DNA from: Krasilnikovia cinnamomea
GTDB lineage: Bacteria > Actinomycetota > Actinomycetes > Mycobacteriales > Micromonosporaceae
NCBI RefSeq assembly: GCF_004217545.1
Contig: NZ_SHKY01000001.1
Span: 2,418,001-2,482,000 of the forward strand
Reading direction: 5' to 3'
DNA: 64,000 nt
Below, piece after piece: positions 28,400-59,605 of the stretch. Within the stretch, counting starts at the first letter, position 1; each line of letters opens with the position of its first letter. Below the pieces are notes generated by a model, which made no database searches, was not told the DNA's origin, and was given only the letters and a program-made list of their open reading frames with translations. Both the position numbers and the translations under genes were made by a program.

Positions 28400-28425
28400 T
28401 TCGGCCACCGGCTCGCACAATTGTG
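28400..28425 (-). promoter_or_regulatory. FliA-type promoter of chemoreceptor gene
   Basis: Minus strand CACA, 16 bases, GCCGAA. One mismatch to the CTCA-N16-GCCGAA pattern of the flagellar genes. The expected start point is about 28393, which would make the mRNA leaderless or nearly so at GTG 28391. Confidence 0.68.
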
Positions 28426-28429
28426 CGAG
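28412..28429. promoter_or_regulatory. 18-bp perfect palindrome over chemoreceptor promoter
   Basis: CTCGCACAATTGTGCGAG, a perfect uninterrupted palindrome covering the -35 and part of the spacer. A repressor or activator dimer bound here would control the chemoreceptor gene directly. Confidence 0.6.
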
Positions 28430-28486
28430 ATCACCGCGTGACACTCGACACGCGTCGGCCGCCACCGGCATGTCGGCCGCGCGGCG

Positions 28487-30271
28487 CTAAACCGTCGCGA
28501 GAAGGCGCTCCCGCGCGAGGAGATCCGGCGCGTCGAACCACTCGTCGTAGTGCGTGGCCGGACCGAGCAGAGTGAGCGCGGCGACATACGCCTCGCCATC
28601 GAGCCGCCGCCCGGTCACCAGCCCGGCCAGCGCCTGCAGATAGTGGTAGTCGGTATACCCCGGAAACGCTTCCAGACCGTTCTTGATGAGGTCGTTCGCC
28701 TCGGCGTCGCGCCCGAGTTGCAGGAGCGTGATGGCCATCCACCGGCCGAGTGCCGCCCGGGCCGAGTCGTCCTCGTCGCGTTGGTAGGCGTCGAGGAAAC
28801 CCGCCATCGCGGCGTCGAAACGCCCGGCGGTGAACGCGCGCAGAGCGGCGGCGTACGGCAGGTCGCGCGGCGCGGTGTTCGCGTGGGCCGGCACGTACGC
28901 GCGGGTGGTGCCCGCCCCGCCGTGCCGTCGCCGGCCGACGACCTGCCACCGGACGACGCGGTGGCCTTCGAACGCCGGGAAGGACACGGGTACGGCCAGG
29001 CGGGCGGCCGCGGTCGCTGCCGCGCGTCGGCGCAGCGTGTTCTCGGCGTCTCCGTCCGCGAAGTGCAGCCCGCGGAGGTCGAACTGCCACGTGTCGTCGA
29101 TCGTCGGAGCTGACCACGTCGCGCACACGCCGCGGTAGGTGTCTTCGACCCGCCTCATGATCGCGTCCCAGGAGTACTCCGCCGCGGTAGCCAGCCCGCC
29201 CTCGCGCAGCCTGCCGGCCAGTTCCGGCTCGTCGAGCACCCGACGCACCGCGCTCACCAGCCCGTCCACGTCACGTACGTCGCAGAGCAGGGCGTTCACG
29301 CCGTCGCGTGCGTACTCCAGGACGCCGACGTTGCGGGTGGACACGACCGGTGTCCCCGAGGCCATCGCCTCGATGACCGGTAACGCGAACGACTCGTAAT
29401 GGGAGCAGCAGACATACACCGACGCACCCCGGTAGATTGCGCCCAGCGTGGCTTGATCCGGAGCGACGACCACGTGGCCCAGCGGTTCCCGCGGCGGGCG
29501 TGGCGTGACCCAGACGAGGTCCAGCTCGCGCCGGTCGGCCTGCAGCGCCTGCCACATCCGGCGCATCTCGGCCATGCCCTTGAACTCGTTGCCATCCCAG
29601 CCGACGACCATCACGTACGGGCGGTCCCTGCTGAACCTGGTACCGGCGGGGTGGAACACGTCCGGGTCGGCGGCGTTGTGCACGACCACCGCCTCGACGC
29701 CGAAGCGGGTCCGGAGCACCTCGGCGGTCGTGCCGCTCACGGTGATCGTCGCGTCGGCCGCCGCCATGCTGCGGGAGACCAGCGCGTGGGTCTCCTCGTC
29801 GATGTCCTCGAACAGGTGAAGATCGCCCTGCTCGAAGTGAACGACCGGGGCGGTGCCGAGGACCCGCGCGGCCATGATCTGATCCCACGCTCCCGCGACG
29901 ACCAGATCGCAGGCGGGATCGCACGCCGGTACGGCCTCGGCGAGTTCCAGCCCCCACGGCACCTGCATGAACGGCACTCGCAGGTCGAACCAGTCCGGTT
30001 GCCGGTAGTGGCTGAGAACGGTGACCCGGTGACCCCGCGCGGCCATGCGGTTCGCCTGCTCGAACTGCACCCGTGTCCCGCCGCAGATGTCGGTGCGCGG
30101 GACGAGATAGCACAGCCGGAGCCGCGCGGGCGCATCGCCGGACGGGGATCGGTGCGGGGCGACCGGCAGCACCTCCCGGCGGGCGATGAACTCGGTGCGG
30201 CGGGCACCGGCGACCGCGGCGTACAGGTCAGGCCGCAGCACGTCGCCCGAGTCGTGCGAAGAAGCTTTCAC
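28487..30271 (-). CDS. GT4 glycosyltransferase with helical-repeat tail
   Basis: 594 residues. A GT-B fold: RLCYLVPRTDICGGTRVQFEQANRMAARG at the N-terminus, then VMVVGWDGNEFKGMAEMRRM (donor-domain start) and the EX7E motif in YVCCSHYESFALPVIEAMASGTPVV with NVGVLEYARDGVNALL. After about residue 430 come a non-catalytic region and two or three TPR-like helix pairs (AFTAGRFDAAMAGFLDAYQRDEDD, LGRDAEANDLIKNGLEAFPGY). GTG 30271, 21 bases after the neighbouring GT2 gene, so one operon. Set between csrA/fliW and a chemoreceptor gene, it may glycosylate flagellin or surface polymers; the acceptor is inferred. Confidence 0.78.
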   Translation of the reverse strand: MKASSHDSGDVLRPDLYAAVAGARRTEFIARREVLPVAPHRSPSGDAPARLRLCYLVPRTDICGGTRVQFEQANRMAARGHRVTVLSHYRQPDWFDLRVPFMQVPWGLELAEAVPACDPACDLVVAGAWDQIMAARVLGTAPVVHFEQGDLHLFEDIDEETHALVSRSMAAADATITVSGTTAEVLRTRFGVEAVVVHNAADPDVFHPAGTRFSRDRPYVMVVGWDGNEFKGMAEMRRMWQALQADRRELDLVWVTPRPPREPLGHVVVAPDQATLGAIYRGASVYVCCSHYESFALPVIEAMASGTPVVSTRNVGVLEYARDGVNALLCDVRDVDGLVSAVRRVLDEPELAGRLREGGLATAAEYSWDAIMRRVEDTYRGVCATWSAPTIDDTWQFDLRGLHFADGDAENTLRRRAAATAAARLAVPVSFPAFEGHRVVRWQVVGRRRHGGAGTTRAYVPAHANTAPRDLPYAAALRAFTAGRFDAAMAGFLDAYQRDEDDSARAALGRWMAITLLQLGRDAEANDLIKNGLEAFPGYTDYHYLQALAGLVTGRRLDGEAYVAALTLLGPATHYDEWFDAPDLLARERLLATV

Positions 30272-30292
30272 CGCAACATCCGTCCCCTCGCG

Positions 30293-32437
30293 TCACACCA
30301 TCTCGATCGCGGACGCCACACCGGGAGCGAGCGCGCGCAGTTCCTCCAGCACCGCGCTGGTCTGCTCGTCGGGCACCTGGTCGAGCGCCTCGGCCAGCGG
30401 GGCGAGCGCGGCCTGGTCACCGAAGAACTCCAGCGCGGCCGCCGCCGCCAGTGCCCGCTGGACGGCGGGACGTTCGGTGGAGGTTGCGGTAGCCAGCAGT
30501 GGGCAGTATTTCGCGAGGTCCTGTTCCCGCAGCCGGCGCGACCACTCGATCGCCCGGTTCAGCGGCAGCCGATCGGCCAGCCAGACCACCACCCCGAAGA
30601 TCCGGGGGTCGCCGGGGAAGCGTTGCCAGAGCGCCTCGATCACGGCATCGGCCAGCTCGGGTGACGCCGTACGCGTGCTGTACAGCACCTCCCGGACTGC
30701 GGGTTCGGGAATCAGCCGGACCAGCTCGGTCAGGTCGGAACCCGCTTCGTCCAGCACTGTGCTCATCACTTCGAGTGGGAGCAGCAGACGTCCGGCGCGC
30801 AGCGCCGGGCGCAGAATCTCGGCCGCCTCTGCCGCCCGGCCGGTGGCTCTGAGGCTGGCGACCTCGTTCGGTGCCATCTCGCGGCGGCCGGCCGCCATGC
30901 CGAAGTCGTTGGTGGCGGTTTCCGGCATCCCGCGGAGAATCTCCAGCACTCGCTCGTGGTCGCCCTCGGTGGCCCGGATGACGATCTCCGCCTCGTCCAC
31001 CGTGACCGGCTCACGGGCGACCTTGCGCAGATCCGAGAGGGCCGCGCTCGCCTCGTCGAGTCGGCCGGTCTGCGCGCAGCACCGGATCAGCGTGTAGAGC
31101 AGTCCGGTCCGGATGAAGCTGTCGGGGTGGGCGGCGAGCCCGGACCGGCATGCTTCGATGGCAGCCTCCGGGTCGCCGGCCTTGCTGACCGATCGGGCGA
31201 GGTTGAAGAGGGCCTCCGGCCCCTCGTCTCGGGCCAGCTCGGCGAGACGGGCGTTGCGACCCACCTTGTCCTTGGTCGCGAACGAGGTCTCGAGGTAGCC
31301 GGAATGCAGGAGAGCCAGCCCGTCGATGGGCCGGGTCTCCGGGATTTCGCCGGTGATCCGGTGGACGACGTGTTCGTGCAGCCGGCCGCGGTACCGGTTC
31401 TCGTGCGCGCGGAACAAGCGCGTGGACTGCACCGTGACGTTGCCGGTCGCGGTCTGGCTGACCTGGGGGACGAGGAACCCGTCGACGGTCCGTTCGGCGG
31501 TGGCCAACTGGTGTCGCAGTGCGGTGACGTCGCCCTGGACGACTTCGTCGGCGTCGACGGTGAAGGACCACTGGCCTCGGCTGTGGGCGATGGATCGGTT
31601 GCGGGCGTCGCCGAAGTGGTCGTCCCAGTAGCCGTCGACGACGTGGGCGCCGTGTTCGCGGGCGATCTCCCGGGTGCGGTCGGTGGAGCCGGTGTCGTAG
31701 ACGACGATCTCGTCCGCCGCGTCGCGCAGCGCACTCAGGCACTCGGCGATGACCGCTTCCTCGTCCTTGGTGATCAGGCACGCCGACAGTAGCGGCGCGT
31801 CGATGGGCGGGGCGGGCACCAGCGCACACTGCCGCCCGCCGAAGTGGGCGATCAGCGCGCTCTCGACCAGCAGCAGGCGGCCGTGCTCGCGCAGCTTTTC
31901 GTACGGCATGTCCAGGGTGGGCCCGCCGACGCGCGCCAACGCTTCCCGGCGGACCGCGACGCATACCGGGCCGAGCCGGTCCACCTCGGTCAGGCCGCGA
32001 TTGTCCTGGCGCCACTGCCGGGCGTACGCCTTGAACTTGGTGACACTGGCGAGCGCCTCGGGGGGCAGCCCGACGCGCTGCGGGCCGAACGTACGAAAGC
32101 AACGGGGCCCGGCGGCGACGACGGTGGGGTCGTCGAACGCCGCGGCGACGGCGTCCAGCCAGTTTGGGGTCAGGAGCGTGTCGCCGTCGAGCAGCACGGC
32201 GATCGGATGGTTGGTGGCGGACAATCCGGCCGACCAGCGAGCGCCCTGCTCCGGTGACGCATCGTCCACAACGGTCAGCCAGGACTGGGCGCGGGTCTTG
32301 GCGGCGAGATCAGGCCGGCGCGGCGGGAGCACGCAGACGACCTCGTCGCGCAGCCCGAGTGTCGGTCGCAGACCGTCCAGGAATTTCTGGAATTCGTCGG
32401 CGGTGCCGCTGGCGGTGACGATCACGGAGACGGGCAC
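30293..32437 (-). CDS. Tandem GT2 glycosyltransferase with TPR-like domain
   Basis: About 714 residues with two family-2 (GT-A) domains. The first, 1-215, has PVSVIVTASGTADEF and LLDGDTLLTPNWLDAV (DXD-like). The second, 215-440, has LLSACLITKDEEAVIAECLSALR, YDTGSTDRTREIAREHGA and TVDADEVVQGD (DXD). From about 440 helical repeats follow (ALFNLARSVSKAGDPEAAIEACRSGLAAHPDS). GTG 32437 is preceded by GAGGTGA at 5 bases, better than GTG 32446. Domain order GT2-GT2-TPR is typical of enzymes that decorate secreted proteins or glycans. It follows csrA by 85 bases and overlaps the flagellar region, suggesting flagellin glycosylation; not proven. Confidence 0.76.
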   Translation of the reverse strand: MPVSVIVTASGTADEFQKFLDGLRPTLGLRDEVVCVLPPRRPDLAAKTRAQSWLTVVDDASPEQGARWSAGLSATNHPIAVLLDGDTLLTPNWLDAVAAAFDDPTVVAAGPRCFRTFGPQRVGLPPEALASVTKFKAYARQWRQDNRGLTEVDRLGPVCVAVRREALARVGGPTLDMPYEKLREHGRLLLVESALIAHFGGRQCALVPAPPIDAPLLSACLITKDEEAVIAECLSALRDAADEIVVYDTGSTDRTREIAREHGAHVVDGYWDDHFGDARNRSIAHSRGQWSFTVDADEVVQGDVTALRHQLATAERTVDGFLVPQVSQTATGNVTVQSTRLFRAHENRYRGRLHEHVVHRITGEIPETRPIDGLALLHSGYLETSFATKDKVGRNARLAELARDEGPEALFNLARSVSKAGDPEAAIEACRSGLAAHPDSFIRTGLLYTLIRCCAQTGRLDEASAALSDLRKVAREPVTVDEAEIVIRATEGDHERVLEILRGMPETATNDFGMAAGRREMAPNEVASLRATGRAAEAAEILRPALRAGRLLLPLEVMSTVLDEAGSDLTELVRLIPEPAVREVLYSTRTASPELADAVIEALWQRFPGDPRIFGVVVWLADRLPLNRAIEWSRRLREQDLAKYCPLLATATSTERPAVQRALAAAAALEFFGDQAALAPLAEALDQVPDEQTSAVLEELRALAPGVASAIEMV

Positions 32438-32522
32438 GCGGATCACCTCTGGTCGATCGGCCGTTGGGGCGCAAGCCCGAGGAGTACGGCCGACCTTCGG
32501 CGGATCAATCCGGGCACACGCC

Positions 32523-32771
32523 TCAGCTCTTGTCCGGCTTGGCCGCCGGTCGGAGGCTGTCGGCCAGTGCCTGCACCGCCTCGTCGTCCGGTGACGCCGC
32601 CGCGCGGTTGGCGGCCTGCAACTCCCGGTAGACCTCCTCGCGGTGCACCTGCACGTCGCGCGGGGCCTGGATGCCGATCCGGATGACATCGCCGCGCGCC
32701 TCGAGCACGGTCACGACGATGTCATCGCCGATGATCACGCTCTCGCCGGCCTTCCTGGTGAGCACCAGCAT
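32523..32771 (-). CDS. csrA: Carbon storage regulator CsrA
   Basis: 82 residues: the CsrA core [50 protein letters not shown], followed by a 25-residue Ala/Asp/Lys tail. Arg near position 6 and the VHREEVY segment, which contact GGA motifs in RNA, are kept. CsrA is a translational repressor; in Bacillus it blocks flagellin mRNA and is held back by FliW. ATG 32771 follows GAGAGGG at 6 bases. The fliW gene lies upstream behind a terminator hairpin. A TAGATT element (minus strand, 32809-32804) may be its own -10. Likely target: the fliC leader in this window. Confidence 0.92.
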
Positions 32772-32838
32772 TGGCTGCCCTCTCGCCATCCGTGGACAAG
32801 GACAATCTAGCCGCGCCCGCGACACACGGCCGCCGACG

Positions 32839-32870
32839 GCACGGGTCCGGCTCGCTGGCCGGACCCGTGC
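32839..32870 (-). terminator. Terminator between fliW and csrA
   Basis: GCACGGGTCCGGC and its perfect complement form a 13-bp stem with a 6-base loop, 2 bases beyond the fliW stop. No U run, but very stable. It separates fliW from csrA, which are usually cotranscribed in other bacteria. Confidence 0.68.
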
Positions 32871-32872
32871 TG

Positions 32873-33304
32873 TCAGTAGTTGCGGCGCATGACCGCCCGA
32901 ACCGGCATCTTGCTGCCCTGCAGGATGACCTGCATGGCCCGGCGGGTGTCCCGGTCCACGATTATCGGCGCCATCAGGTTCGCCGTGGTCTCCTCTGTTC
33001 CGGCGGTGATGACGACCATGACCAGTACCCGGTCCGGATCCTGGTTGTTCAACGCCGCGAGAGCTTCGTTGTCGATCTCCGGCGCGTAGTCCGGGAAGAA
33101 CGGCTCGGGCGGGGCCACCAGGAACCGCAGGCTCGGGTCCTGAACCGAGGTGAACGCGTAGAGCAAACCCTCGTCGTTCAGCCGGACCAGCACGAACTGC
33201 CGATGGGCGGGGAAGCCGGCCATGGGCGCGGCCATCTCGATGATCGGCAGATCGATGTCGGTCATGATGTCCCCCATAGGTCGGGACGCGGTGCGAGTAG
33301 TCAT
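32873..33304 (-). CDS. fliW: Flagellar assembly factor FliW
   Basis: 143 residues. Typical FliW core: [58 protein letters not shown], then [36 protein letters not shown]. FliW binds free flagellin or CsrA and so ties flagellin synthesis to its export. GAGGTGACC precedes ATG 33304; ATG 33265, with GGGGGA ahead, would shorten it by 13 residues. The ribosome site lies in the last codons of the decayed flgL fragment, which shows that fliW once directly followed a flgL gene. Confidence 0.9.
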
Positions 33305-33306
33305 GG

Positions 33307-33435
33307 TCACCTCAGAAAGTCGATGAGCGAGGGCTGGCCCGCCTTGGCCACTCGGGCAAGGCGGCCTGGTACGACGTCTGCTGGAGCTGTGTTTCCATGA
33401 TGGTCTCGGCAGAGCGAGTCCTCGATGTCGGACAT
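33307..33435 (-). pseudogene. Decayed C-terminal fragment of a second flgL
   Basis: On the minus strand the pieces MSDIED, ETIMETQLQQTSYQAAL and [16 protein letters not shown]-stop align in order with the FlgL C-terminus (VSDIEDVDLP, KTIMEMQLQQTAYQSAL, TAKVIQPSLLDYLR). A 2-base loss after MSDIED and a 1-base loss after QAAL put them in different frames. Upstream of MSDIED the similarity fades. It abuts fliW by 2 bases. Confidence 0.82.
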
Positions 33436-33566
33436 TTCGCGGCGCCCACGGCACCAAGTGGTCCCCCGGCAGCGTCCTCGTCTGCGTGATCCGATTCTAT
33501 CGGCTTCCGATCTCTGGAACGGGCGGTTTCCGCTAGTCACCGGCATTGTTGTGCTCGTTTCGGAAA

Positions 33567-33606
33567 CGACGACGGCCCCCGGGGGATCCCCCGGGGGCCG
33601 TCGTCG
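33567..33606 (-). terminator. 40-base perfect palindrome ending flgN-flgK-flgL
   Basis: A perfect 20+20 palindrome centred at 33586/33587, arms beginning CGACGACGGCCCCCGGGG, 7 bases beyond the flgL stop. As RNA it folds into a very stable hairpin. It would separate flgL from the pseudogene and fliW. Confidence 0.82.
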
Positions 33607-33613
33607 ATCACGT

Positions 33614-34501
33614 CTACCGCAAGTAGTCCAGCAGCGATGGCTGGATGACCTTGGCAGTCGCGGCCAGCGCCGACTGGTACGCGGTCTGCTGCAGCTGCAT
33701 CTCCATGATCGTCTTGGGCAGGTCGACGTCCTCGATGTCCGAGACCTGGTTCTTCAGCGCGTCCACTCGCCTCTGCGCGGTGTCCTTCGCCTGCGACACC
33801 CGGTTGTACCGGGCACCCACATCCGCCAGGGTCGACTTGATGAGGTCGCCGGAGGCGTTCAGCTTGTCCATGCTGGCCTGCAACGCCGGTGTGTTGTTGG
33901 CGCGCAGGCTCGTGGCGATGTCCGACAGCACCGTGAAGAGCTGGTCCGGACCGGTACCAAAGACGTTCGGACCGACTTCGCCGACCCGTACCTGGGAGCC
34001 GTTGCCGATCGTGCGCATCACGTCGCCGGTGTCACCGAGGTAGACCCCGGTGCTGTCGTACGCGGCAGGCAGCGTGGTGGTGCCGCCGAACACCGGCCGT
34101 CCGAGGTAGGTGGTGTTCGCGACGCCGATCAGGCCGTCCCGGATGTTCTCCACCTCGACCGCCAGCGCCTCGCGCGATTCCTGCGAGGCGGCGCCGTTCT
34201 GGCTCTGGATGCCGAGTTCCCGCACCCGGTTCAGCTGGGTCAGCGACGTGGTGAGGATGTTGTCGACCGTACCGAGCCAGCCCAGGCCGTCGTCGGCGTT
34301 GCGGGAGTACTGCTCGTTGACCCGCGCCTCGCCACGCAGCTGCATCGACGAGAGCGTGCCGCTCGGCGAGTCGGACGGCCGGCTGATCAGCTTGCCGCTG
34401 GACAGCTGCTCCTGGAGCTTGCCACTGCGGGCGACGTTGCGCTGCAGGTTGGCCATCACCCGGGTGGTGATGCTGCCCTCGGTGACCCTTATCTGAGGCA
34501 T
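33614..34501 (-). CDS. flgL: Hook-filament junction protein FlgL (HAP3)
   Basis: 295 residues. Flagellin-like D0/D1 ends: IRVTEGSITTRVMANLQRNVARSGKLQEQLSSGKLISRPSD at the N-terminus and the C-terminal helix KTIMEMQLQQTAYQSALAATAKVIQPSLLDYLR. The middle (about 130-190) is a short beta domain. FlgL forms the ring between FlgK and the filament and is exported with the FlgN chaperone. It follows flgK by 10 bases. Its length is normal for Gram-positive species. The strong palindrome behind it ends the operon, and a broken second copy lies just beyond. Confidence 0.93.
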   Translation of the reverse strand: MPQIRVTEGSITTRVMANLQRNVARSGKLQEQLSSGKLISRPSDSPSGTLSSMQLRGEARVNEQYSRNADDGLGWLGTVDNILTTSLTQLNRVRELGIQSQNGAASQESREALAVEVENIRDGLIGVANTTYLGRPVFGGTTTLPAAYDSTGVYLGDTGDVMRTIGNGSQVRVGEVGPNVFGTGPDQLFTVLSDIATSLRANNTPALQASMDKLNASGDLIKSTLADVGARYNRVSQAKDTAQRRVDALKNQVSDIEDVDLPKTIMEMQLQQTAYQSALAATAKVIQPSLLDYLR

Positions 34502-34511
34502 GTCGTCCTAC

Positions 34512-36469: not shown

Positions 36470-36495
36470 GTCGGCATGTTCCCGGCACGACTGAG
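36470..36495 (-). promoter_or_regulatory. FliA-type promoter of flgN-flgK-flgL
   Basis: Minus strand CTCA (36495-36492), 16 bases, GCCGAC (36475-36470); one mismatch in the -10. About 75 bases of leader before GTG 36388. It faces away from the fliC promoter in the same 374-base gap. Confidence 0.72.
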
Positions 36496-36669: not shown

Positions 36670-36695
36670 CTCATGATCGTCGGGGGACGGCCGAA
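36670..36695 (+). promoter_or_regulatory. FliA-type promoter of fliC
   Basis: CTCA (36670-36673), 16 bases, GCCGAA (36690-36695): exact match to the window consensus. Expected start near 36702, giving a leader of about 60 bases with a GGA hairpin and an AAGGAGG ribosome site. Confidence 0.82.
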
Positions 36696-40040: not shown

Positions 40041-40058
40041 GCAACTCCACGGCAACCG
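40041..40058 (+). promoter_or_regulatory. 11-bp-period direct repeat upstream of flgB promoter
   Basis: GCAACTC-CACG-GCAACCG ends 7 bases before the flgB -35. It matches, with two mismatches in the first half, the perfect GCACCCG-N4-GCACCCG repeat in front of fliJ (opposite orientation). Likely activator site. Confidence 0.5.
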
Positions 40059-40065: not shown

Positions 40066-40091
40066 CTCAGTGGATGAGCGAGTACGCCGAA
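40066..40091 (+). promoter_or_regulatory. FliA-type promoter of the flgB operon
   Basis: CTCA (40066-40069), 16 bases, GCCGAA (40086-40091): exact consensus. About 75 bases of leader before flgB. It drives flgB-flgC-fliE-fliF-fliG-fliH-fliI and perhaps more. Confidence 0.82.
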
Positions 40092-45870: not shown

Positions 45871-45888
45871 CGGGTGCAGCTCGGGTGC
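45871..45888 (-). promoter_or_regulatory. Perfect 11-bp-period direct repeat upstream of fliJ promoter
   Basis: CGGGTGC-AGCT-CGGGTGC, that is GCACCCG-N4-GCACCCG on the minus strand, 5 bases before the -35. From memory this equals the binding pattern reported for the Actinoplanes missouriensis regulator TcrA; to be verified. Confidence 0.62.
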
Positions 45889-45893: not shown

Positions 45894-45919
45894 CTCAGCG
45901 CCTTCCGGGCCGGGCCGAA
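45894..45919 (+). promoter_or_regulatory. FliA-type promoter of fliJ
   Basis: CTCA (45894-45897), 16 bases, GCCGAA (45914-45919): exact consensus, 35 bases behind fliI and 42 before fliJ. It divides the basal-body cluster into separate units. Confidence 0.8.
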
Positions 45920-45961: not shown

Positions 45962-46636
45962 GTGAACCGGTTCTTTAGGCTCGCGCCAGTACTGCGCGCA
46001 CGCAAAGCGCAGGAGGACGTGGCCCGCGGCGCCGTGCTTCAGTCACAGGCCGAGATCCGCCACGCCCAGGCCCTCGTCAAGCGGCGACACCTCGAACTCA
46101 CCGGCTCGGACGCACCCACCGAAGGCACGGCCCGCGCCATGGTCGCCTCACTGGTGGCCCGGCAGTCCCTGGCGGCCGGCCTCTTCGACGCGCACCGGAT
46201 GGTCGCCGAGGCCGAAGAGGCCACCCAGGAAAAGATGGACGAGCTGGCCGACGCCGCCAAGCGCCGCCGGGCCGTCGAGCTGCTGGCCGAGCGGCACGCC
46301 GAGGCCGTACGGCGGCACGACCTCGCACTGGACCAGCAGAACCTCGACGAGCTGGCCGTCACCGCCAAGGCCCGCAACGCCGCCCGCGGCGTCGACGGGC
46401 TCCGCGAGGAACGCGCCAACCCGCTGCGCCACGGCCACGGCAGCGCCGCCGACCGCGAGGCGGCCAGCCGCGCCGTCGCCAACTCGGTGGCCGCCCAGCG
46501 CCCCACGTACGACCTGGCCGACCCGGCCCAGACTCTCGCCGCCCGCCGCGCGGCCCTGCTGAGCGCTCAGCAGACTGCACGGCCGGCCGACCTCTCCGAC
46601 GACAGCACCGACGACGACAACCGGAGCCGCGCATGA
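45962..46636 (+). CDS. fliJ: Flagellar export protein FliJ
   Basis: 224 residues, longer than enteric FliJ (147). Begins NRFFRLAPVLRARKAQEDVARGAVLQSQAEI, the usual FliJ opening, followed by a long antiparallel coiled coil rich in Ala, Glu and Arg with the conserved-type QQNLDELAVTAKARN. The last 75 residues are a variable Ala/Asp tail. FliJ sits in the FliI ring and couples the ATPase to FlhA. GTG 45962 has AGGAGG ahead. The next start overlaps its stop. Confidence 0.87.
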   Translation: MNRFFRLAPVLRARKAQEDVARGAVLQSQAEIRHAQALVKRRHLELTGSDAPTEGTARAMVASLVARQSLAAGLFDAHRMVAEAEEATQEKMDELADAAKRRRAVELLAERHAEAVRRHDLALDQQNLDELAVTAKARNAARGVDGLREERANPLRHGHGSAADREAASRAVANSVAAQRPTYDLADPAQTLAARRAALLSAQQTARPADLSDDSTDDDNRSRA

Positions 46637-47622
46637 TGGGCATCGACGGGGTCCTGGCCCGAATCTCGGAGCTGAACAGCCAGCTCAGGGTCGTACCCGC
46701 CACCGTCGGCGCCGCCACGAGCGCGCCCCGGACCGGCGGCACGGCGTTCGCCTCCGCCCTGGCCAACGCCACCGCCACGGACACCGCCACGGACACCGGC
46801 ACGACCCGCGCCGGGGCGACCGGCGCGGACGTCGTGGCGGCCGCCAAGAAGTACCTGGGCACCCGGTACGTGTTCGGCAGCACCGACCCCGCCAAGGGGC
46901 TGGACTGCTCCGCGCTGGTGCAGCGGGCGTACCGCGACCTCGGCATCGAACTGCCGCGCAACTCGTGGCAGCAGGCCAAGGCGGGCACAAAGGTCGCCAA
47001 CCTCGCCGCCGCGCAGCCCGGCGACATCCTCGCGTTCAACTCCCCCGTCAACCACGTCGCCATCTACCTCGGCGACAACAAGATGATCGCGGCGCCGAAG
47101 CCCGGCGACCACGTCAAGATCCAGTCGGTGTACGAGACGCCGACCCACATCCGGCGGGTGCTCGGCACCGAGGCCGCGACCGGCGCAACCACCGCGGCGG
47201 CCCGCCCGGCCGCGCTGCGGCAGACCGGCGGCCTGGCCGGGGTGCCGTACGCGGACCTGTTCCTGAAGGCCGGCGCGAAGTACCACGTCTCGCCGGAGCT
47301 GCTGGCCGCGGTCGCCAAGGTCGAATCCAGCTACAACCCGAAGGCAGTCAGCCCCGCCGGGGCGCAGGGCCTCATGCAGCTGATGCCGGCCACCGCCCGC
47401 GGGCTGGGCGTGCGCAACTCGTTCGACCCGGCGCAGGCCGTCGACGGCGCCGCCAAGCTGCTCGCGAACCACCTCAAGGAGTTCAAGTCGCTGCCGCTGG
47501 CCCTCGCGGCCTACAACGCGGGCGGCGGCGCGGTGCACAAGTACGGGGGCATCCCCCCGTTCGCGGAAACCCAGGCGTACGTGCCGAAGGTCCAGAAGGC
47601 GCTCGCCGCGCTGGGCGGCTGA
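46633..47622 (+). CDS. NlpC/P60 endopeptidase - SLT lytic transglycosylase fusion
   Basis: 329 residues. N-terminus resembles a flagellar or export-type region (GIDGVLARISELNSQLR) without signal peptide. NlpC/P60 domain about 70-175 with catalytic Cys in GLDCSALVQRAYRDLGI, His in NHVAIYLGDNKMI, and a later His in DHVKI. SLT domain about 205-329 with catalytic Glu in AAVAKVESSYNPKAVSPAGAQGLMQLMPATA and AAYNAGGGAVHKYGG. It cuts both peptide stems and glycan strands. Between fliJ and fliK (ATG overlaps the fliJ stop), it probably opens the wall for the rod, replacing FlgJ. Export through the flagellar gate is inferred. Confidence 0.9.
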   Translation: MMGIDGVLARISELNSQLRVVPATVGAATSAPRTGGTAFASALANATATDTATDTGTTRAGATGADVVAAAKKYLGTRYVFGSTDPAKGLDCSALVQRAYRDLGIELPRNSWQQAKAGTKVANLAAAQPGDILAFNSPVNHVAIYLGDNKMIAAPKPGDHVKIQSVYETPTHIRRVLGTEAATGATTAAARPAALRQTGGLAGVPYADLFLKAGAKYHVSPELLAAVAKVESSYNPKAVSPAGAQGLMQLMPATARGLGVRNSFDPAQAVDGAAKLLANHLKEFKSLPLALAAYNAGGGAVHKYGGIPPFAETQAYVPKVQKALAALGG

Positions 47623-49799: not shown

Positions 49800-49817
49800 G
49801 CACCCGAACTGCACCTA
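49800..49817 (+). promoter_or_regulatory. 11-bp-period direct repeat at flgD promoter
   Basis: GCACCCG-AACT-GCACCTA, the second half overlapping the -35 CTAA. Same pattern as the repeats before fliJ and flgB, with two mismatches in the second half. Confidence 0.5.
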
Positions 49818-51613: not shown

Positions 51614-51628
51614 CGATGACCGTGTGCC

Positions 51629-52089: not shown

Positions 52090-52877
52090 TGGACATCGCC
52101 ACCATCGTCGGCGTTGTCGCCGCCCTGGTCATCGTCTTCACCGTCCAGATCCTGGAGGGTGGCTCGCCGGCGTCGATCCTGCTGATTCCGTCGCTGCTGC
52201 TGGTGTTCGGCGGCGCGTTCATGGCCGCCATGGCCGGCGGCGTGCTGAAGGACGCCCTCAACTTCCCCAAGCTGCTGCAGAAGGCGTTCCTCGCCAAGGT
52301 GGCGCCGCCGACCCGGCTCGTGGACGACATCGTCAAGCTGGCCGAGCGGGCGCGCCGCGAGGGCCTGCTGGCGCTGGAGGACGCGGTCAAGGAGGTCCAG
52401 CACCCCTTCCTCAAGCGCGGCCTGCAGCTGGCCATCGACGGCACCGACCCGGAGGAGCTGCACGACATCCTGCACGCCGAGATCGCCGCGAAGAAGAAGG
52501 CCGACAAGGCCGGCATGAAGATCTTCGAGAGCATGGGCGGCTACGCGCCGACGATCGGCATCATCGGCACGGTCATGGGCCTGGTGCACGTGCTGGAGAA
52601 CCTCAGCAAGCCGGAGACGCTGGGCCATTCCATCTCCGCCGCGTTCGTCGCGACGCTGTGGGGCGTGATGAGCGCCAACGTGATCTGGCTGCCGATCGCC
52701 TCCCGGCTCACCCGGCTCTCCGGTGTCGAGTGCGAGGAGATGGAGCTGATTATCGACGGTGTGCTGGCCATCCAGTCCGGCTCGAACCCGCGCCTGGTGG
52801 CCCAGAAGCTGCGCAGTCTGCTCCCGCCGGAGGTACGCAAGGCCGCCGAGGCCGCGTCCACCAAGAAGGCGGCGTAG
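52089..52877 (+). CDS. motA: Flagellar stator protein MotA
   Basis: 262 residues, four membrane segments: 3-24, 30-50, about 150-170 and 182-205. Conserved cytoplasmic loop with charged residues (RARREGLLALEDAVKEVQHPFLKRGLQLAIDGTDPEELHD) that touches FliG, then KIFESMGGYAPTIGIIGTVMGLVHVLENLSKPETLGHSISAAFVATLWGVMSANVIWLP with the two Pro-rich channel helices. Forms the MotA5B2 unit. Typical of the proton-type MotA with GGYAPTIGIIGTVMGL. Confidence 0.95.
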   Translation: MDIATIVGVVAALVIVFTVQILEGGSPASILLIPSLLLVFGGAFMAAMAGGVLKDALNFPKLLQKAFLAKVAPPTRLVDDIVKLAERARREGLLALEDAVKEVQHPFLKRGLQLAIDGTDPEELHDILHAEIAAKKKADKAGMKIFESMGGYAPTIGIIGTVMGLVHVLENLSKPETLGHSISAAFVATLWGVMSANVIWLPIASRLTRLSGVECEEMELIIDGVLAIQSGSNPRLVAQKLRSLLPPEVRKAAEAASTKKAA

Positions 52878-52880
52878 CCG

Positions 52881-53888: not shown

Positions 53889-53904
53889 CGACAAGGAGGT
53901 TTCG

Positions 53905-54354
53905 ATGAGCGAGAAGGATTCGGCTGCGCCGAAGAAGAAGGGCAAGCTGCTGCTGTTCCTCCTGGGCCCGGTCATTCTGCTGGGCGGTGGCGGGGCCGGC
54001 GGGTACATGCTGTTCGCGTCGCAGAAGGCGGAGGCCACGCCGAAGGCGCCGGAGAAGGGCGTGGTCGTCACGTTGGAGGATCCGCTGACGATCAACCTGT
54101 CCGCCGGGCACTATCTGAAACTGGGCTTCGCCATGCAGATGACCGCGGACGCCGGCGAGGAGGAGATCGACACCGCCGAGGCGCGTGACCTGGCGATCGA
54201 CCAGTACACCGGCCTGGACATCGCGGTGCTGGAGAACGAGAAGGGTCGGGCGAAGGCCAAGCAGGACCTGCTCGCCAAGCTCGACCAGGCATACCGCAAG
54301 GACAAGAAGCAACTGGTCATGGACATCTACTTCACCCAGTTCGTGACGCAGTGA
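53905..54354 (+). CDS. fliL: Flagellar basal-body protein FliL
   Basis: 149 residues. Lys-rich N-terminus, one membrane segment about 15-36 (LLFLLGPVILLGGGGAGGYMLFA), then the FliL stomatin-like domain: VVTLEDPLTINLSAGHYLKLGFAMQMT, LAIDQYTGLDIAVLENEKGRAKAKQDLLAKLDQAY, and the end VMDIYFTQFVTQ typical of FliL. It forms a ring around MotB and supports torque. AAGGAGG precedes ATG 53905. It closes the stator unit before the fliM promoter. Confidence 0.93.
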   Translation: MSEKDSAAPKKKGKLLLFLLGPVILLGGGGAGGYMLFASQKAEATPKAPEKGVVVTLEDPLTINLSAGHYLKLGFAMQMTADAGEEEIDTAEARDLAIDQYTGLDIAVLENEKGRAKAKQDLLAKLDQAYRKDKKQLVMDIYFTQFVTQ

Positions 54355-54419
54355 CGGTGGCGCCGGACCGGGCATCGACCTGCCCATCCGGCGTACCTGG
54401 GGACAAAGCGACCCACGGG

Positions 54420-54445
54420 CTCAGTGGTTCGCGAAACGAGCCGAT
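54420..54445 (+). promoter_or_regulatory. FliA-type promoter of fliM
   Basis: CTCA (54420-54423), 16 bases, GCCGAT (54440-54445); one mismatch. The start would fall near 54452, only about 3 bases before GTG 54455, so a leaderless mRNA is predicted. Confidence 0.74.
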
Positions 54446-54454
54446 GAGGACGAC

Positions 54455-55435
54455 GTGACCAACTCTCCGTCTGCGCCCGCCACCGGGCGGGGAACCATGC
54501 CGGCCGTCGGGCGGGGCAAGATGTCGCGCCGCGGTACCGGAGGGCCGGCACCGTACGACTTCCGGCGCCCGATCAAGCTGTCCCGCGAGCACGTCCGGAC
54601 GCTGCAGATAGCGTTCGAGACGTACGCCCGCGGCTGCGGCACGCTGCTGACCACCCGGCTGCGGGTGGTCAGCAGCGTGACGTTGAACTCGATCGAGCAA
54701 CTCAACTACGACGAGTACGTCGCGACGCTGGCCAACCCCACCATCCTGGCGCTGGTCTCCCTCGACCCGCTGCCCGGCACGGTGCTGATGGAGATGTCCT
54801 CACCGGCGGTGATGACGGCCATCGACCACATGCTGGGTGGTCCGGGCGGTCCCCAACCGGAGCGCCCGCTGACCGACGTCGAGATGCCACTGCTGCGCGG
54901 CCTGATGGAGCGGATGCTCGGCGAACTGCGCTACGGCTTCGAGACGCTGGTCGACATCAACCCGAAGCTGCGGGACATCGAGTACAACGCGCAGTTCCTG
55001 CGGGCACACCAGCCGGGCGACGCGGTGGTGATCGCCTCGTTCGAGATGAAGATCGGCACCGAGGAGTGCGTGGCGAGCATCTGCCTGCCGTTCAACACGA
55101 TCCTGCCGGTGCTGGAACACCATGAAGCGATCGAGCTGACCCCGGCCGAGCGGCTGGCCCGCGACGTCGCGCTGCGGAACCTGACGGGCGGACTTTCTGC
55201 CGCGCCGATCGATGTTGCGGTCCGATTCCACCCAATTCGGATGCGTACCGATGACATCGTGGATCTACGCCCCGGCGACGTCGTGCCGTTGGGGCACCCG
55301 ATCAGCGTGCCGCTCGACGTGACCGTCAACGACACCGTCTTCGCCCACGCCGTACCGGGTAATCAGGGCGCCCGGCTCGCGTGTCTCGTCGTGCCGTCGC
55401 CCCAGGAACCGTCGAAGGAGGTTGGCCGCCTGTGA
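54455..55435 (+). CDS. fliM: C-ring switch protein FliM
   Basis: 326 residues. Middle CheC-like domain about 45-230 with [33 protein letters not shown], the loop HMLGGPGG that touches FliG, and [27 protein letters not shown]-terminal SpoA domain ([27 protein letters not shown]). The N-terminal 40 residues are Gly/Arg/Pro-rich ([20 protein letters not shown]) and lack the usual EIDALL CheY-binding motif. fliN overlaps its stop. Confidence 0.92.
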
Positions 55436-56181
55436 CCGCGCCCACCATCACCGAGCCGCAGGTCGCGCTGGCGCGCAGCGCCGCGGAGGCGGCCCGCGCC
55501 GTCCTTCCCACGAGCCGTGAGCTGGTCGTCGGCGTACCGGTCGCGGCCAGCGAGGACGCGCTGCCCGACGGACAGGCGATCACCGCCCGGTTCAGTGGCG
55601 CCGCGACCGGCGACGTGGTCGTGGTCGTCGGGCAGGACCTGGCCGACGCGCTCAAGGAGAGCCCGCTCGGCGAGCTGGACCTGACCGCGGCGGTACGCCC
55701 GGCCCTGGAAGCCGCCGCCCGTACGTTCGGGCCGGTCGTGCTGGACCCGGGCCAGGTCATGGAGCCCGCCGTCGCGCTCAGCGCGCTGGCCGCCAAGCCG
55801 GGCGCGGTGGCCGTGCCGCTGCTCGACGGCGAGACCGTACGCGCGATCGTGGCGCTCTCGCTCACGCCCTGGCCCGCGGAAGCCGGTCCGGGCGGGGTCC
55901 CGGCCCGGCGGGCGGAGATCGGCGCCATCCGCGGTGGCCTGGACATGCTGCACGACGTCGAGATGGAGGTCTCGGCGGAGCTGGGCCGGACCAGGATGAG
56001 CGTGCGGGAGCTGCTGTCGCTGGTGCCCGGCGCGATCGTGGAGCTGGACCGGGCCGCGGGCAGCCCCGCGGACCTGCTGGTGAACGGCCGCCTCATCGCC
56101 CGCGGCGAGGTCGTCGTCATCGACGAGAACTTCGGCATCCGGATCACGGAGATCGTCGCCCCGGGCAGTGAACAGGGGTAG
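55432..56181 (+). CDS. fliN: C-ring switch protein FliN (long, FliY-like)
   Basis: 249 residues, about twice the size of short FliN. Residues 1-145 form a CheC/FliY-like region ([22 protein letters not shown]) but without a clear CheC phosphatase motif. The C-terminal SpoA domain about 170-245 is clear: [67 protein letters not shown]. It completes the C ring with FliM and FliG. GTG 55432 (GTGA overlap) with AAGGAGG ahead. Confidence 0.92.
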
Positions 56182-56187
56182 CCGTCC

Positions 56188-56688
56188 GTGATCGAACTCG
56201 TCCTGCGGATCGGCTTCTCGCTGCTGATCGTGTTCGGCCTGATGTGGGGCTTGGCCAAGGTGGTCCGGCGCCCGCTTACCGGCCGCCACAGGACGCCCAA
56301 CCTCGCCGTACTGGACCGTCAGCAGCTCGCCCGCGGCGCGGTGGTGACGGTGGTGCAGGTCGCCGACAAGGCACTCATCCTCGGCGTGACCGACCAGTAC
56401 GTGAGCCTGCTCGGTGAGACCGCGCTGGGGCCGTTCGAGCCGGTTCCGCCGGTGCACACGAAGAAGCGCGACCCGGTCTCGCTGGAGCAGGACGTCACGC
56501 TCCCGCCGGTGCACACCAAGAAGCGTGATCCCGTCGCGCTGAGGCCGGAAGCCACGCTCGCGGACGTGACGCTGCCGGCGGACCTGGCGGTACGGCACCG
56601 CGGCGGCCGCCTGGACGGCTCACTGCTGTCGCCGAGCACCTGGCGGGCGACCATGGAGTTCCTCCGCGATCGGACGTCGAGGCGATGA
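56188..56688 (+). CDS. fliO: Export apparatus protein FliO
   Basis: 166 residues. One N-terminal membrane helix (IELVLRIGFSLLIVFGLMWGLAKVV), then the FliO domain LAVLDRQQLARGAVVTVVQVADKALILGVTDQYVSLLGE. Residues about 87-124 are two exact-length 19-residue repeats, each starting PPVHTKKRDPV. The C-terminal tail is Arg-rich. FliO assists FliP ring assembly. GTG 56188 lies 6 bases behind fliN; the fliP start overlaps its stop. Confidence 0.88.
   Translation: MIELVLRIGFSLLIVFGLMWGLAKVVRRPLTGRHRTPNLAVLDRQQLARGAVVTVVQVADKALILGVTDQYVSLLGETALGPFEPVPPVHTKKRDPVSLEQDVTLPPVHTKKRDPVALRPEATLADVTLPADLAVRHRGGRLDGSLLSPSTWRATMEFLRDRTSRR
56446..56559. repeat. Two 57-base tandem repeats in fliO
   Basis: Copies at 56446-56502 and 56503-56559, both starting CCGCCGGTGCACAC. 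They encode two successive 19-residue units. The first 11 residues are identical between copies, the rest has diverged. Confidence 0.85.
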
Positions 56689-57578
56689 TGCGCCGCGGGT
56701 TCGTACTGCTGCTGACCGGGTTGGCGCTGGCGCTCGCGCCGGCCGCCCCGGCGTCGGCCGACCCAGCCCCGGCCCCGGCGCCCGCCCCGGTCGCTCCCGC
56801 ACCCGCTCCCGCCCCGGCCGTTCCCGCCCCGGCTCGGCACGCTCCGATGGTTCCTGTGGCGTACCGGGCGCCGGTCGCGCCGACCACACCGGCCGCGCCG
56901 ATCCCGCCGAGCGGCGCCGTCAACGTCAACGTCAACGTGAACGGCGAGAACCGGCCCGCCAACTCGTTGGTGATCCTGCTCGGCATCACGTTGCTGTGGG
57001 TACTGCCCGCGCTGTTGCTGGTGTGCACGCCGTTCACCAAGGTGTTCATGGTCCTGGGGATCGCCCGCAACGCGCTCGGGCTGACCAGCATGCCGCCGAA
57101 CCAGGTGCTGGCCGGGCTGGCGCTGTTCATCAGCCTGTTCATCATGGGCCCCACGCTGGCCCAGATGAACGAGCAGGGTCTGCAGCCGTACCTCAACGGC
57201 ACCAAGACGCAGTCGCAGGCGTTCGAGGACGGCATCCAGCCGCTGCGGCAGTTCATGCTCAAGACGACCCGCCCGGACGAGATCGCGCTGATGGTGCGCG
57301 TCTCCGGCCAGCCGACGCCGGCGAACCAGGACGACCTGCCGATGACCACGCTGGTGCCCGCGTTCGTACTGTCGGAGCTGCGCGCGGCGTTCATCATCGG
57401 ATTCGTCATCTTCATCCCGTTCATCATCATCGACATGGTGGTGTCCGCGTCACTGATGTCACTGGGCATGATGATGTTGCCACCGGTGACTGTGGCGCTG
57501 CCGTTCAAGTTGTTGCTGTTCGTGCTGGTCAACGGGTGGAGTCTGATCATCACGGCGCTAGTGGCGAGCTACGGATGA
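56685..57578 (+). CDS. fliP: Export gate protein FliP
   Basis: 297 residues. Signal peptide 1-25 (GFVLLLTGLALALAPAAPASA), then an unusual 40-residue Pro/Ala stretch. FliP core: NSLVILLGITLLWVLPALLLVCTPFTKVFMVLGIARNALGLTSMPPNQVLAGLALFISLFIM, DLPMTTLVPAFVLSELRAAFIIGFVIFIPFIIIDMVVSASLMSLGMMMLPPVTVALPFKLLLFVLVNGW. Five FliP with one FliR and four FliQ form the export channel. Its stop overlaps fliR; no fliQ lies between. Confidence 0.95.
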   Translation: MMRRGFVLLLTGLALALAPAAPASADPAPAPAPAPVAPAPAPAPAVPAPARHAPMVPVAYRAPVAPTTPAAPIPPSGAVNVNVNVNGENRPANSLVILLGITLLWVLPALLLVCTPFTKVFMVLGIARNALGLTSMPPNQVLAGLALFISLFIMGPTLAQMNEQGLQPYLNGTKTQSQAFEDGIQPLRQFMLKTTRPDEIALMVRVSGQPTPANQDDLPMTTLVPAFVLSELRAAFIIGFVIFIPFIIIDMVVSASLMSLGMMMLPPVTVALPFKLLLFVLVNGWSLIITALVASYG

Positions 57579-58339
57579 ACTTCGACGCCCCGCTGGCCAC
57601 GCTCCTCGCTGTGATGCTCGGAGCAGTACGGGCCGGGGCGTGGCTGGTCGTCAGCCCGCCGTTCAACTCGCGGCTCATCCCGGCTCCGGTCAAGGCGCTG
57701 ATGTCGGTGGGGATCGCGATACCGATGACGCCGTACCTGACCACGTCGCTGCCCGCGATGACCGCCCCGGCGATCATCGCGAGCGCGGCGCTGCAGTTCT
57801 TCGTCGGCGCCTCGCTCGGGTTCATCACCGCGCTGTACTTCGCGGCGCTGCAGGCGGCGGGCGACCTGCTCGACGTGTTCGGCGGTTTCACGCTGGCGTA
57901 CGCGTTCGACCCGCTGTCGCTGAGCCAGAGCTCGGTGTTCGGCCGCTTCTACAACCTGGTCGCGATGACGCTGCTGTTCGCCACGGACGCGTACCAGATG
58001 ATCCTGCGCGGGTTTCTGCAGTCGTACGAGACGCTGCCGCTGAACGCGTCGTTCTCGATGGCCACGCTGGGCCGGGTGCTCACCGAGGGGGTGAGCGAGA
58101 TGTTCCTGGCCGCGCTGCAGATCGCGGGCCCGTTGGTCGCGATCCTGTTTCTCACGGACGTGGCGTTCGGGCTGCTCAACCGCGTGGCGCCCGCTCTGAA
58201 CGCGTTCCAGCTCGGGTTCCCCGCCAAGATCTTCCTGGTGCTCGCGCTGTCCGGGATCGCGATCGCCGCGCTCCCCCGCGCGCTGGACTCCTTGATCGAC
58301 AAGGCGGTCACCGCGGTCGTGCAGCTCAGCGGCGGCTGA
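57575..58339 (+). CDS. fliR: Export gate protein FliR
   Basis: 254 residues with about six membrane segments. Typical start FDAPLATLLAVMLGAVRAGAWLVVSPPFNSRLIPAPVKALMSVGIAIPM, then GASLGFITALYFAALQAAGDLLDVFGGFTLAYAFDPLSLSQSSVFGRFYNLVAMTLLFATD and VAFGLLNRVAPALNAFQLGFPAKIF. ATG 57575 overlaps the fliP stop as ATGA. Normally fliQ stands between these two genes; here translation passes directly from FliP to FliR. Confidence 0.94.
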   Translation: MNFDAPLATLLAVMLGAVRAGAWLVVSPPFNSRLIPAPVKALMSVGIAIPMTPYLTTSLPAMTAPAIIASAALQFFVGASLGFITALYFAALQAAGDLLDVFGGFTLAYAFDPLSLSQSSVFGRFYNLVAMTLLFATDAYQMILRGFLQSYETLPLNASFSMATLGRVLTEGVSEMFLAALQIAGPLVAILFLTDVAFGLLNRVAPALNAFQLGFPAKIFLVLALSGIAIAALPRALDSLIDKAVTAVVQLSGG

Positions 58340-58353
58340 CACCGCGGGTCGGG

Positions 58354-58379
58354 CTCAGCGCCGGCCGGTTCGCGCCGAA
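58354..58379 (+). promoter_or_regulatory. FliA-type promoter of flhB
   Basis: CTCA (58354-58357), 16 bases, GCCGAA (58374-58379): exact consensus, in the 69-base gap between fliR and flhB. Confidence 0.8.
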
Positions 58380-58408
58380 CGGGATGACAGCAGACCCGGG
58401 GAGGTGAC

Positions 58409-59503
58409 GTGGCCGGCGAGAAGACCGAACAGCCCACCGCGCAACGGCTGAAGAAGGCCAGGCAGGAAGGCCAGATCGGGCGTAGCCAAGACATCGGCGC
58501 CTGGGTGGGCATGCTGGCCGCCAGTATCGTGCTGCCCAAGACGCTGAGCGCGGCGATGGATCACTCCCGGGAACTGATGGGCAAGATCCCCGCCACGATC
58601 GCCGATCCCGACCCGCACGTCGCCCTCGGCATCCTCCGGGAGGGGCTGCTGAGCGCGACGTGGACCGTGCTCCCGCTGGCCCTGACCATGATGGTGGTCG
58701 GCATCGCCGCGGCGGGCGGGCAGGGCGGCATCCGGGTCGCCACCAAGCTGTTCCTGCCGAAGTTCAACCGGCTCAACCCGCTGCCGGGGCTCAAGAAGAT
58801 GTTCGGCCCCCAGTCGCTGTGGGAGGGCACCAAGGCACTGGTGAAGACGACCGTGCTCGCCGGTGTGCTGTACGCCACGATGAAGGACATGGTGCCGCTG
58901 CTCATGACGGCGGGCCGGCTTCCGGTCAGCACCCTGCTCGCGGTGGTCACCGACGGGGCGCTCTCGGTGATCCGGGTCGCCGCCGTGGCGGGCATCGTGA
59001 TGGCCGCGGCCGACTACTTCGTGGTGCGCCGCCGCACCAACAAGCAACTGCGGATGACCAAGGAAGAGGTCAAGCAGGAGCACAAGAACACCGAGGGTGA
59101 CCCGCACGTCAAGGGGCAGATCCGCTCCCGGCAGCTGGCCATGGCCCGCAACCGGCAGATGGCCGACGTGCCGACCGCGGACGTGGTGCTGGTCAACCCG
59201 ACGCACGTGGCCGTGGCGCTGCGCTACGACCCGGCCAAGGGCGCACCCCGCATCGTGGCCAAGGGCCAGGGCGCGATCGCCACGAAGATCCGTGAGCTGG
59301 CCACGGAGCACCGCATCCCGATGGTGCAGGACGTGCCGCTGGCCCGGGCCCTGCACAAGGGCACCGAGGTGGGCCACGAGATCCCGGCCGAGTTGTTCGG
59401 CGCGGTGGCGAAGGTGCTCGCGTTTGTGATGAGTCTCAAGGCAAAGGGCTCCGCCGCCGGTATGCACCGCAACCCGCACGCAACCACGGCCGCCGCCGCA
59501 TAG
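58409..59503 (+). CDS. flhB: Export switch protein FlhB
   Basis: 364 residues. N-terminal EKTEQPTAQRLKKARQEGQIGRSQDIGAW, four membrane segments up to about 215, and the cytosolic domain with the self-cleaving NPTH motif in VVLVNPTHVAVALRYDPAKGAPRIVAKGQG (about 255-285). Cleavage lets FlhB change from rod-hook to filament export on the FliK signal. GTG 58409 with GGGGAGG ahead. Own promoter; ends 174 bases before flhA. Confidence 0.95.
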   Translation: MAGEKTEQPTAQRLKKARQEGQIGRSQDIGAWVGMLAASIVLPKTLSAAMDHSRELMGKIPATIADPDPHVALGILREGLLSATWTVLPLALTMMVVGIAAAGGQGGIRVATKLFLPKFNRLNPLPGLKKMFGPQSLWEGTKALVKTTVLAGVLYATMKDMVPLLMTAGRLPVSTLLAVVTDGALSVIRVAAVAGIVMAAADYFVVRRRTNKQLRMTKEEVKQEHKNTEGDPHVKGQIRSRQLAMARNRQMADVPTADVVLVNPTHVAVALRYDPAKGAPRIVAKGQGAIATKIRELATEHRIPMVQDVPLARALHKGTEVGHEIPAELFGAVAKVLAFVMSLKAKGSAAGMHRNPHATTAAAA

Positions 59504-59579
59504 GGGCCAATGTGGGAGATTTACTCACATCCCGGCCATAACCGCGAGACGATGGGCTCGCCGGGCCCGGAAACTGCCG

Positions 59580-59605
59580 CTCAGTGACCGCGACGGACCG
59601 CCGAT
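59580..59605 (+). promoter_or_regulatory. FliA-type promoter of flhA
   Basis: CTCA (59580-59583), 16 bases, GCCGAT (59600-59605); one mismatch. Leader of about 65 bases before flhA. A GCAACCC-N4-GCAACCA repeat lies 94 bases upstream within the flhB end (59469-59486), which may or may not be functional. Confidence 0.72.

Follow-up and report, generated by a model that had tools for sequence, protein, structure and literature searches.

In Actinoplanes missouriensis, the closest described system, flagellar promoters of the form CTCA(N15-17)GCCGAA and eleven mapped start points have been reported (Jang et al. 2016, J Bacteriol 198:2219), so that the motif and its use by one sigma factor without early and late tiers are reportedly already published for this species. 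In the A. missouriensis literature that we searched, which did not include Jang et al., the CTCA/GCCGAA flagellar motif was not found. The same motif, in the same kind of flagellar gene cluster and, as reported for A. missouriensis, likewise with an orphan fliQ outside the cluster, occurs in the 64,000-nucleotide stretch of DNA from the soil bacterium Krasilnikovia cinnamomea analyzed here (contig NZ_SHKY01000001.1, positions 2,418,001 to 2,482,000; hereafter the window). Compared with the one-sigma conclusion reported for A. missouriensis, the present analysis uses sequence only; what it adds is a footprint in relatives, a family-wide contrast between flagellated and non-flagellated genomes, the content of the regulon, and a subset of promoters with a TcrA-type box. 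A second point of comparison is the WhiG regulon of Rubrobacter, in which WhiG-type promoters likewise precede pilus and cyclic di-guanosine monophosphate (c-di-GMP) enzyme genes; here, flagellar and chemoreceptor genes are included as well, and the RsiG that gates Rubrobacter WhiG is lacking in Actinoplanes (PMC8325347). For the K. cinnamomea sites, we consider it likely that they are ordinary FliA/WhiG promoters of a zoospore regulon, a subset of which is composite with a TcrA-type box, a pattern that suggests a feed-forward loop from TcrA to FliA. The composite subset comprises flgB and fliJ, with fliD and flgN added in some species and perhaps also the orphan fliQ.

The genome (7.6 Mb, two contigs) is that of an Actinoplanes-clade member of the Micromonosporaceae, judging by 84-90% FliI identity with Actinoplanes, Paractinoplanes, Pseudosporangium, Jidongwangia and Couchioplanes. 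The minus-strand part of the cluster consists of mcp, two glycosyltransferase genes, fliW, flgL, flgK and flgN, followed by fliC, fliD, fliS, flgBC, fliEFGHIJ, slt, fliK, flgDE, flbD, motAB, fliL, fliMNOP, fliR, flhB, flhA and a gene without Pfam match. Except for mcp, the glycosyltransferase genes, fliW, slt and flbD, names were assigned from translations and gene order, and many of these are backed by tblastn matches in relatives. No fliQ was seen between fliP and fliR; the sole fliQ match of the genome lies at C1:5372421. The original prediction had named ten promoters reading CTCA-N16-GCCGAA with at most one mismatch, and all ten were recovered, with the variants it had listed, among 23 such matches in the window. 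As it had also anticipated, the motif exceeds random sequence: 100 dinucleotide shuffles gave an expectation of 4.5 and a maximum of 11, and 23 was never reached. An eleventh promoter-placed site, 41 bases upstream of the slt/NlpC gene, had been missed. The remaining 12 either lie away from promoters or have no assignment, and nine of them fall within genes. Because these 12 alone already exceed 4.5, the shuffles understate the background, and the case therefore rests on placement and conservation, not on the motif alone.

Conservation was assessed as a footprint in the region upstream of each gene in 26 Actinoplanes-clade loci, scanned for spacers of 12 to 20 and counted at 9 of 10 letters or better unless stated otherwise (Table 1). 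Upstream of the control genes fliS, flgC, fliE, fliF, fliG, fliH, fliI, flgK, motA, fliL and fliN, no N16 site was found, and flgE had one in 1 of 6 loci; motB, flgL and fliP were represented by too few loci for a control count. At fliD, a 45% identity cut-off lost most relatives and a lower cut-off recovered them (25 loci); these mostly read CTGA-N16-ACCGAA, and at 9/10 or better the count is 3 of 4 loci. In the five loci that have a site at the corresponding position upstream of slt (L017, L020, L021, L032, L037), it reads CTAA-N16-GCCGAA/T. The mcp site would be near-leaderless, with 8 bases from the -10 to the likely GTG start at 28391; the relatives compared there are 33-48% identical, and one of the two clear sites among them is a partial match. 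Both N16 matches upstream of flhB in relatives fall in the coding sequence of the preceding gene, and L022 has one N17 site 24 bases upstream. Given their low counts in relatives, the mcp and flhB sites were dropped as firm promoters. Upstream of the orphan fliQ there is no motif at 9/10. When 151 relatives' sites were pooled, CTCA and GCCGA were each present at 80-100% per position and the sixth -10 base was A in 60, C in 25 and T in 13%, though these letters lean toward the motif because sites were picked by their match to CTCA/GCCGAA. The flanks, which were not selected for, read G (72%), C/T (75%) and G (73%) after CTCA, and G (85%) three bases behind the -10, giving a pooled consensus of CTCAGYG and GCCGAW with N16-17 counted from CTCA.

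What kind of promoter is this? Sigma-28 promoters canonically have 15 bases after a four-base -35. With this spacing, CTCA-N16 is the canonical FliA/WhiG promoter read one base early, (C)TCAR-N15-GCCGA. The published FliA/SigD/WhiG (sigma-28) consensus has TAAA at -35 and GCCGATAA at -10 (PMC8325347); the window's sites resemble it in the -10 GCCGAW and in a -35 with T and A in place, and differ from it in that the second -35 base is C, not A, and the -10 stops at GCCGAA/T without the conserved TAA. In Geodermatophilaceae, which were among the distant actinobacterial loci analyzed apart (L064-L084 and L086-L090 were left out), the spacer is 17 at 18/18 flgB, 15/15 fliM and 13/16 fliC genes (9/10 or better). 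Four Geodermatophilaceae loci (among L039-L057, L062 and L063) read GTCA-N17-GCCGAT at flgB and CTCA-N17-GCCGTA at fliC. The assignment to FliA/WhiG-type promoters, already made in the original prediction, is thus borne out by the GCCGAW -10, the TCA-type -35 and sigma factors of the cognate type in the genome. The idea that the form is lineage-specific is not, because its geometry is canonical and Geodermatophilaceae, too, have a TCA-type -35, there with N17. The supposedly invariant 16-base spacer is constant at the ten sites but varies across the clade, where fliC more often has N17, and its constancy is not clear at other promoters of the same genome: near 30 of its 37 chemoreceptor genes, N16 was found 7 times, N17 twice and N15 once, with 0-2 for the other spacers.

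A subset of the promoters is accompanied by a second element. The published TcrA box, nnGCA(A/C)CCG-n4-GCA(A/C)CCGn, repeats after 11 bases and lies immediately upstream of the core promoter (PMC12691653); the boxes described here share repeat, period and position, but in some of the flagellar operons they are joined to a FliA-type promoter with constant spacing. With up to two mismatches, 19 such boxes occur in the window, against 9.8 expected. Those at flgB and fliJ are the most widely kept (Table 1). At the same threshold, relatives have a box at 7/24 fliD (14/24 at 3 mismatches) and 6/24 flgN genes, compared with 1/23 for fliC, 0/8 for fliM, 0/17 for flhA and 0/5 for flgD; the 0/13 at lyt is not a clean test, as only 5 of those loci have a promoter-placed site. 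The box ends 4-8 bases before the -35, or 14-15 bases at flgN. At flgB and fliJ, changing the period to 10, 12 or 13 bases, or scrambling the box in either of two ways, leaves scores of 0-2. Defining a composite as a box with at most two mismatches, a gap of 0-15 and a promoter at 8/10, we counted 58 composites in 28 relatives' loci, with 5 (16) and 7 (30) as the commonest gaps, and none in one shuffle of the same loci. The possible box at flgD was set aside as probably due to chance, being kept in none of the five relatives. Because the box stands at flgB and fliJ but hardly at fliC and flhA, the flagellar units are not equal. In the literature searched, to the extent available and with Mouri 2018 and Hashiguchi 2020 (Mol Microbiol) outside that search, the TcrA box is nowhere linked to flagellar promoters.

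Table 1. Predicted promoters, TcrA-type boxes and two cluster genes of the window; positions count from its first base, and fractions give relatives with the feature.
Feature	Position	Strand	Evidence or remark
FliA-type promoter, mcp, CACA-N16-GCCGAA, weak	28400..28425	-	window scan; clear in 2/8 relatives
fliW	32873..33277	-	PF02623, 8.3e-32
FliA-type promoter, flgN-flgK-flgL, CTCA-N16-GCCGAC	36470..36495	-	N16 in 24/24 relatives
FliA-type promoter, fliC, exact	36670..36695	+	N16 in 7/24, N17 in 12/24 relatives
FliA-type promoter, fliD, ACCGAA	37612..37637	+	N16 best in 23/25 relatives at 8/10 or better
TcrA-type box, 2 mismatches, ends 7 bases before flgB -35	40041..40058	+	25/27 relatives
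FliA-type promoter, flgB-flgC-fliEFGHI, exact	40066..40091	+	N16 in 25/26 relatives
TcrA-type box, perfect, inverted, ends 5 bases before fliJ -35	45871..45888	-	19/25 relatives
FliA-type promoter, fliJ, exact	45894..45919	+	N16 in 24/26 relatives
Eleventh FliA-type site, slt/NlpC, CTCA-N16-GCCGAC	46566..46591	+	matching place in 5/26 loci
slt + NlpC/P60 cell-wall hydrolase (lytA-like)	46633..47622	+	PF01464 and PF00877
Possible TcrA-type box, 2 mismatches, overlaps flgD -35	49800..49817	+	0/5 relatives
FliA-type promoter, flgD-flgE-flbD-motAB-fliL, CTAA-N16-GCCGAA	49815..49840	+	5/5 relatives
FliA-type promoter, fliM-fliN-fliO-fliP-fliR, GCCGAT	54420..54445	+	5/5 relatives
FliA-type site, flhB, exact, without footprint support	58354..58379	+	2/15 relatives at N16
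FliA-type promoter, flhA and following gene, GCCGAT	59580..59605	+	12/17 relatives

Which sigma factors could read these promoters? The TIGR02479 profile has 16 matches in the genome, four of which stand out at 176-195 bits, two of them over the 189.6 cut-off. These four FliA/WhiG-family sigma genes all lie outside the window, and their products are pairwise 54-64% identical. Two of them were compared with solved structures and match FliA and a second sigma structure, which we take to be Streptomyces WhiG. Two of the four loci (L003-L006) lie about 3 kb apart. The original prediction had assumed one sigma factor, which cannot be taken for granted with four close paralogs in the genome. Three of the four genes have a TcrA-type box with at most one mismatch upstream, with 45-90 bases between its end and the earliest potential start codon; the background for such boxes is 4 in the 64 kb window. 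The fourth gene has a FliA-type site instead, and one of the three box-bearing genes has both. Several overlapping TcrA-type boxes in 11-base steps lie upstream of the sigma gene at L004. No FlgM was found, as PF04316 has no match at E 10 or less in this 99% complete genome, though a diverged FlgM could escape such a search; a classical FlgM-gated late tier is consequently not seen. Several promoters are internal to the cluster and precede basal-body and filament genes alike, as had been proposed. The further claim of parallel units without early and late tiers agrees with the missing FlgM match but not with the conserved TcrA-type box at flgB and fliJ and its near absence at fliC, fliM and flhA in relatives.

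From this arrangement, a mechanism can be proposed. The response regulator TcrA would first raise the FliA-family sigmas, and TcrA and the sigmas would then act jointly at flgB, fliJ and perhaps fliQ, flgB and fliJ being the starts of the basal-body and export units. For fliC, fliM and flhA, the sigma would be sufficient. Such a coherent feed-forward loop would let all units fire in one developmental window, with some of them requiring both inputs. HhkA is the probable partner of TcrA in A. missouriensis (PMC10733313) and may join it in inducing the FliA-family sigmas. The more specific model, framed for zoospore-forming actinomycetes in general, in which TcrA would activate several FliA-family sigmas and flgB, fliJ and perhaps fliQ would be AND-gated while the flagellin, motor-switch, FlhA, chemoreceptor and c-di-GMP units would respond to sigma only, without a FlgM cascade, has in our judgment an even chance of being correct.

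Beyond the cluster, the motif requires a refined form to be informative. Genome-wide, the original ten-letter motif is not enriched (exact CTCA-N16-GCCGAA, 19 vs 23 for the reversed control), and it was dropped as a genome-wide marker in favor of CTCAR-N15-GCCGAW, a form chosen after the window's sites were known. Written as CTCA[AG]-N15-GCCGA[AT], this pattern has 57 sites in the genome vs 20 for its reversed control, and a shifted-spacer pattern has 17 vs 17, so a genome-wide signal appears in the refined but not in the exact form. CTCAG-N{14,16}-GCCGA gave at least 106 vs at least 78 matches and was not taken further. FlhA was found in 21 of 81 Micromonosporaceae genomes. In these 21, the ratio of CTCAR-N15-GCCGAW to reversed matches is 1128/490 = 2.30 (range 1.48 to 4.6), compared with 1422/1408 = 1.01 (range 0.53 to 2.64) in the 60 genomes without FlhA; a Mann-Whitney test on the ratios gives p 3e-11, an optimistic value as the genomes are related. 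G063 (77% complete, FlhA in pieces) was counted as flagellated, and G059 (82% complete, no FlhA found, congener of a flagellated genome) as non-flagellated. Three of the 57 matches in the K. cinnamomea genome (C1:105303, 1083354 and 4462107) are antisense within genes, next to GGDEF matches on the opposite strand. At L092, L097 and L119, the antisense strand of GGDEF/EAL genes spells CTCA-N16-GCCGAA through DDFGTGYSS codons, as read by hand, a recurring false positive. Because these codons spell the motif, counts are slightly inflated in genomes rich in GGDEF/EAL genes, as flagellated zoospore formers are (PMC10746217).

Where do the sites outside the window lie? Of these 51, 29 are within 250 bases upstream of a called gene, compared with 1 of 17 for the shifted spacer. 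Among the 29 genes are 5 for chemoreceptors, 9 for GGDEF/EAL proteins, and one each for a histidine kinase, a Flp pilin, a TPR protein, GroEL, a cellulase, a subtilase, an aldehyde dehydrogenase and a solute-binding protein; six have no Pfam match and one has a DUF4190 match below the cut-off. The groEL gene (L106) has CTCAA-N15-GCCGAA 39 bases upstream of its start. Given 37 chemoreceptor and 85 GGDEF matches genome-wide, and assuming a gene total of about 7,000, 29 random genes would be expected to include about 0.15 chemoreceptor and 0.35 GGDEF genes. In A. missouriensis, 136 genes rise at least 100-fold between day 1 and day 3, including 29 flagellar, 9 methyl-accepting chemotaxis protein and 4 pilus genes, tcrA, hhkA and fliA2 (PMC11960193). 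The predicted regulon, with its chemoreceptor and c-di-GMP genes, agrees with this RNA-seq summary (PMC11960193).

Several observations speak against a composite TcrA-FliA arrangement or against the breadth of the regulon. Three non-flagellated genomes show a clear motif excess (G059, 2.6; G066, 1.9; G080, 1.8), and the mcp and flhB sites of the window are poorly supported. On the side of the box, the one at flgB in the window is itself two mismatches off the consensus, and at fliD a 10-base period scores 9/24, more than the TcrA period; one scrambled box, likewise counter to specificity, scores 4/13 at lyt. The orphan fliQ (L091, C1:5370921-5374136) has only a degenerate composite, a box with two mismatches that stands 7 bases before CTCT-N16-CCCGAA, the same distance as at flgB. 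Five of the 51 sites outside the window have a box with at most three mismatches within 70 bases, but none has one at the flagellar distance of 4-8. This last result would also suit a simpler explanation, that all operons are equal and FliA-dependent and that the repeats at flgB and fliJ have no function or are used by a different protein. The promoter is indeed common to all units, and Jang et al. are said to have been led to one sigma factor and simultaneous assembly by 5-prime rapid amplification of cDNA ends in A. missouriensis. The flagellar genes of that species also rise together (PMC11960193). Against it, conservation of the box comes close to that of the promoter in flgB (25/27) and fliJ (19/25) regions, where its distance is constant, and fliC, fliM and flhA almost always lack it, so that we regard control by sigma only as rather unlikely.

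If the boxes are functional, they could still be bound by a direct-repeat regulator other than TcrA. The repeat fits the published TcrA consensus in letters and period, other periods and scrambled boxes score next to nothing at flgB and fliJ (yet not at fliD for the 10-base period), and the same box lies upstream of three FliA-family sigma genes, all of which make another regulator improbable. Chance similarity in GC-rich sequence would account for the missing genome-wide enrichment of the exact motif and for the 12 of 23 window matches that are off promoters or unassigned. Shuffles, the footprint with its control genes and the contrast between flagellated and non-flagellated genomes all contradict it, and the footprint refutes it for flgN, flgB, fliJ, flgD, fliM, flhA and fliC, though not for mcp and flhB; as a general explanation, we consider chance very nearly negligible. 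FliA/WhiG promoters with a TcrA-type box at a subset of units thus remain our preferred reading.

These findings touch on the question of how flagellar assembly is timed without an evident FlgM checkpoint in spores that swim only briefly. Composite TcrA-FliA promoters are a testable proposal, as they predict two promoter classes with fixed geometry within one cluster, and the contrast in motif excess offers an easy initial look at the FliA regulon in Micromonosporaceae genomes.

Two further features of the window deserve mention. Two large glycosyltransferase genes (28487-32689, minus strand) lie between mcp and fliW/flgL and may form a flagellin glycosylation island. At 22572-22597 (plus strand), CTAA-N16-GCCGAA stands about 40 bases upstream of a small gene (DUF7455) that has a good ribosome-binding site; this could be a further regulon member or a chance match.

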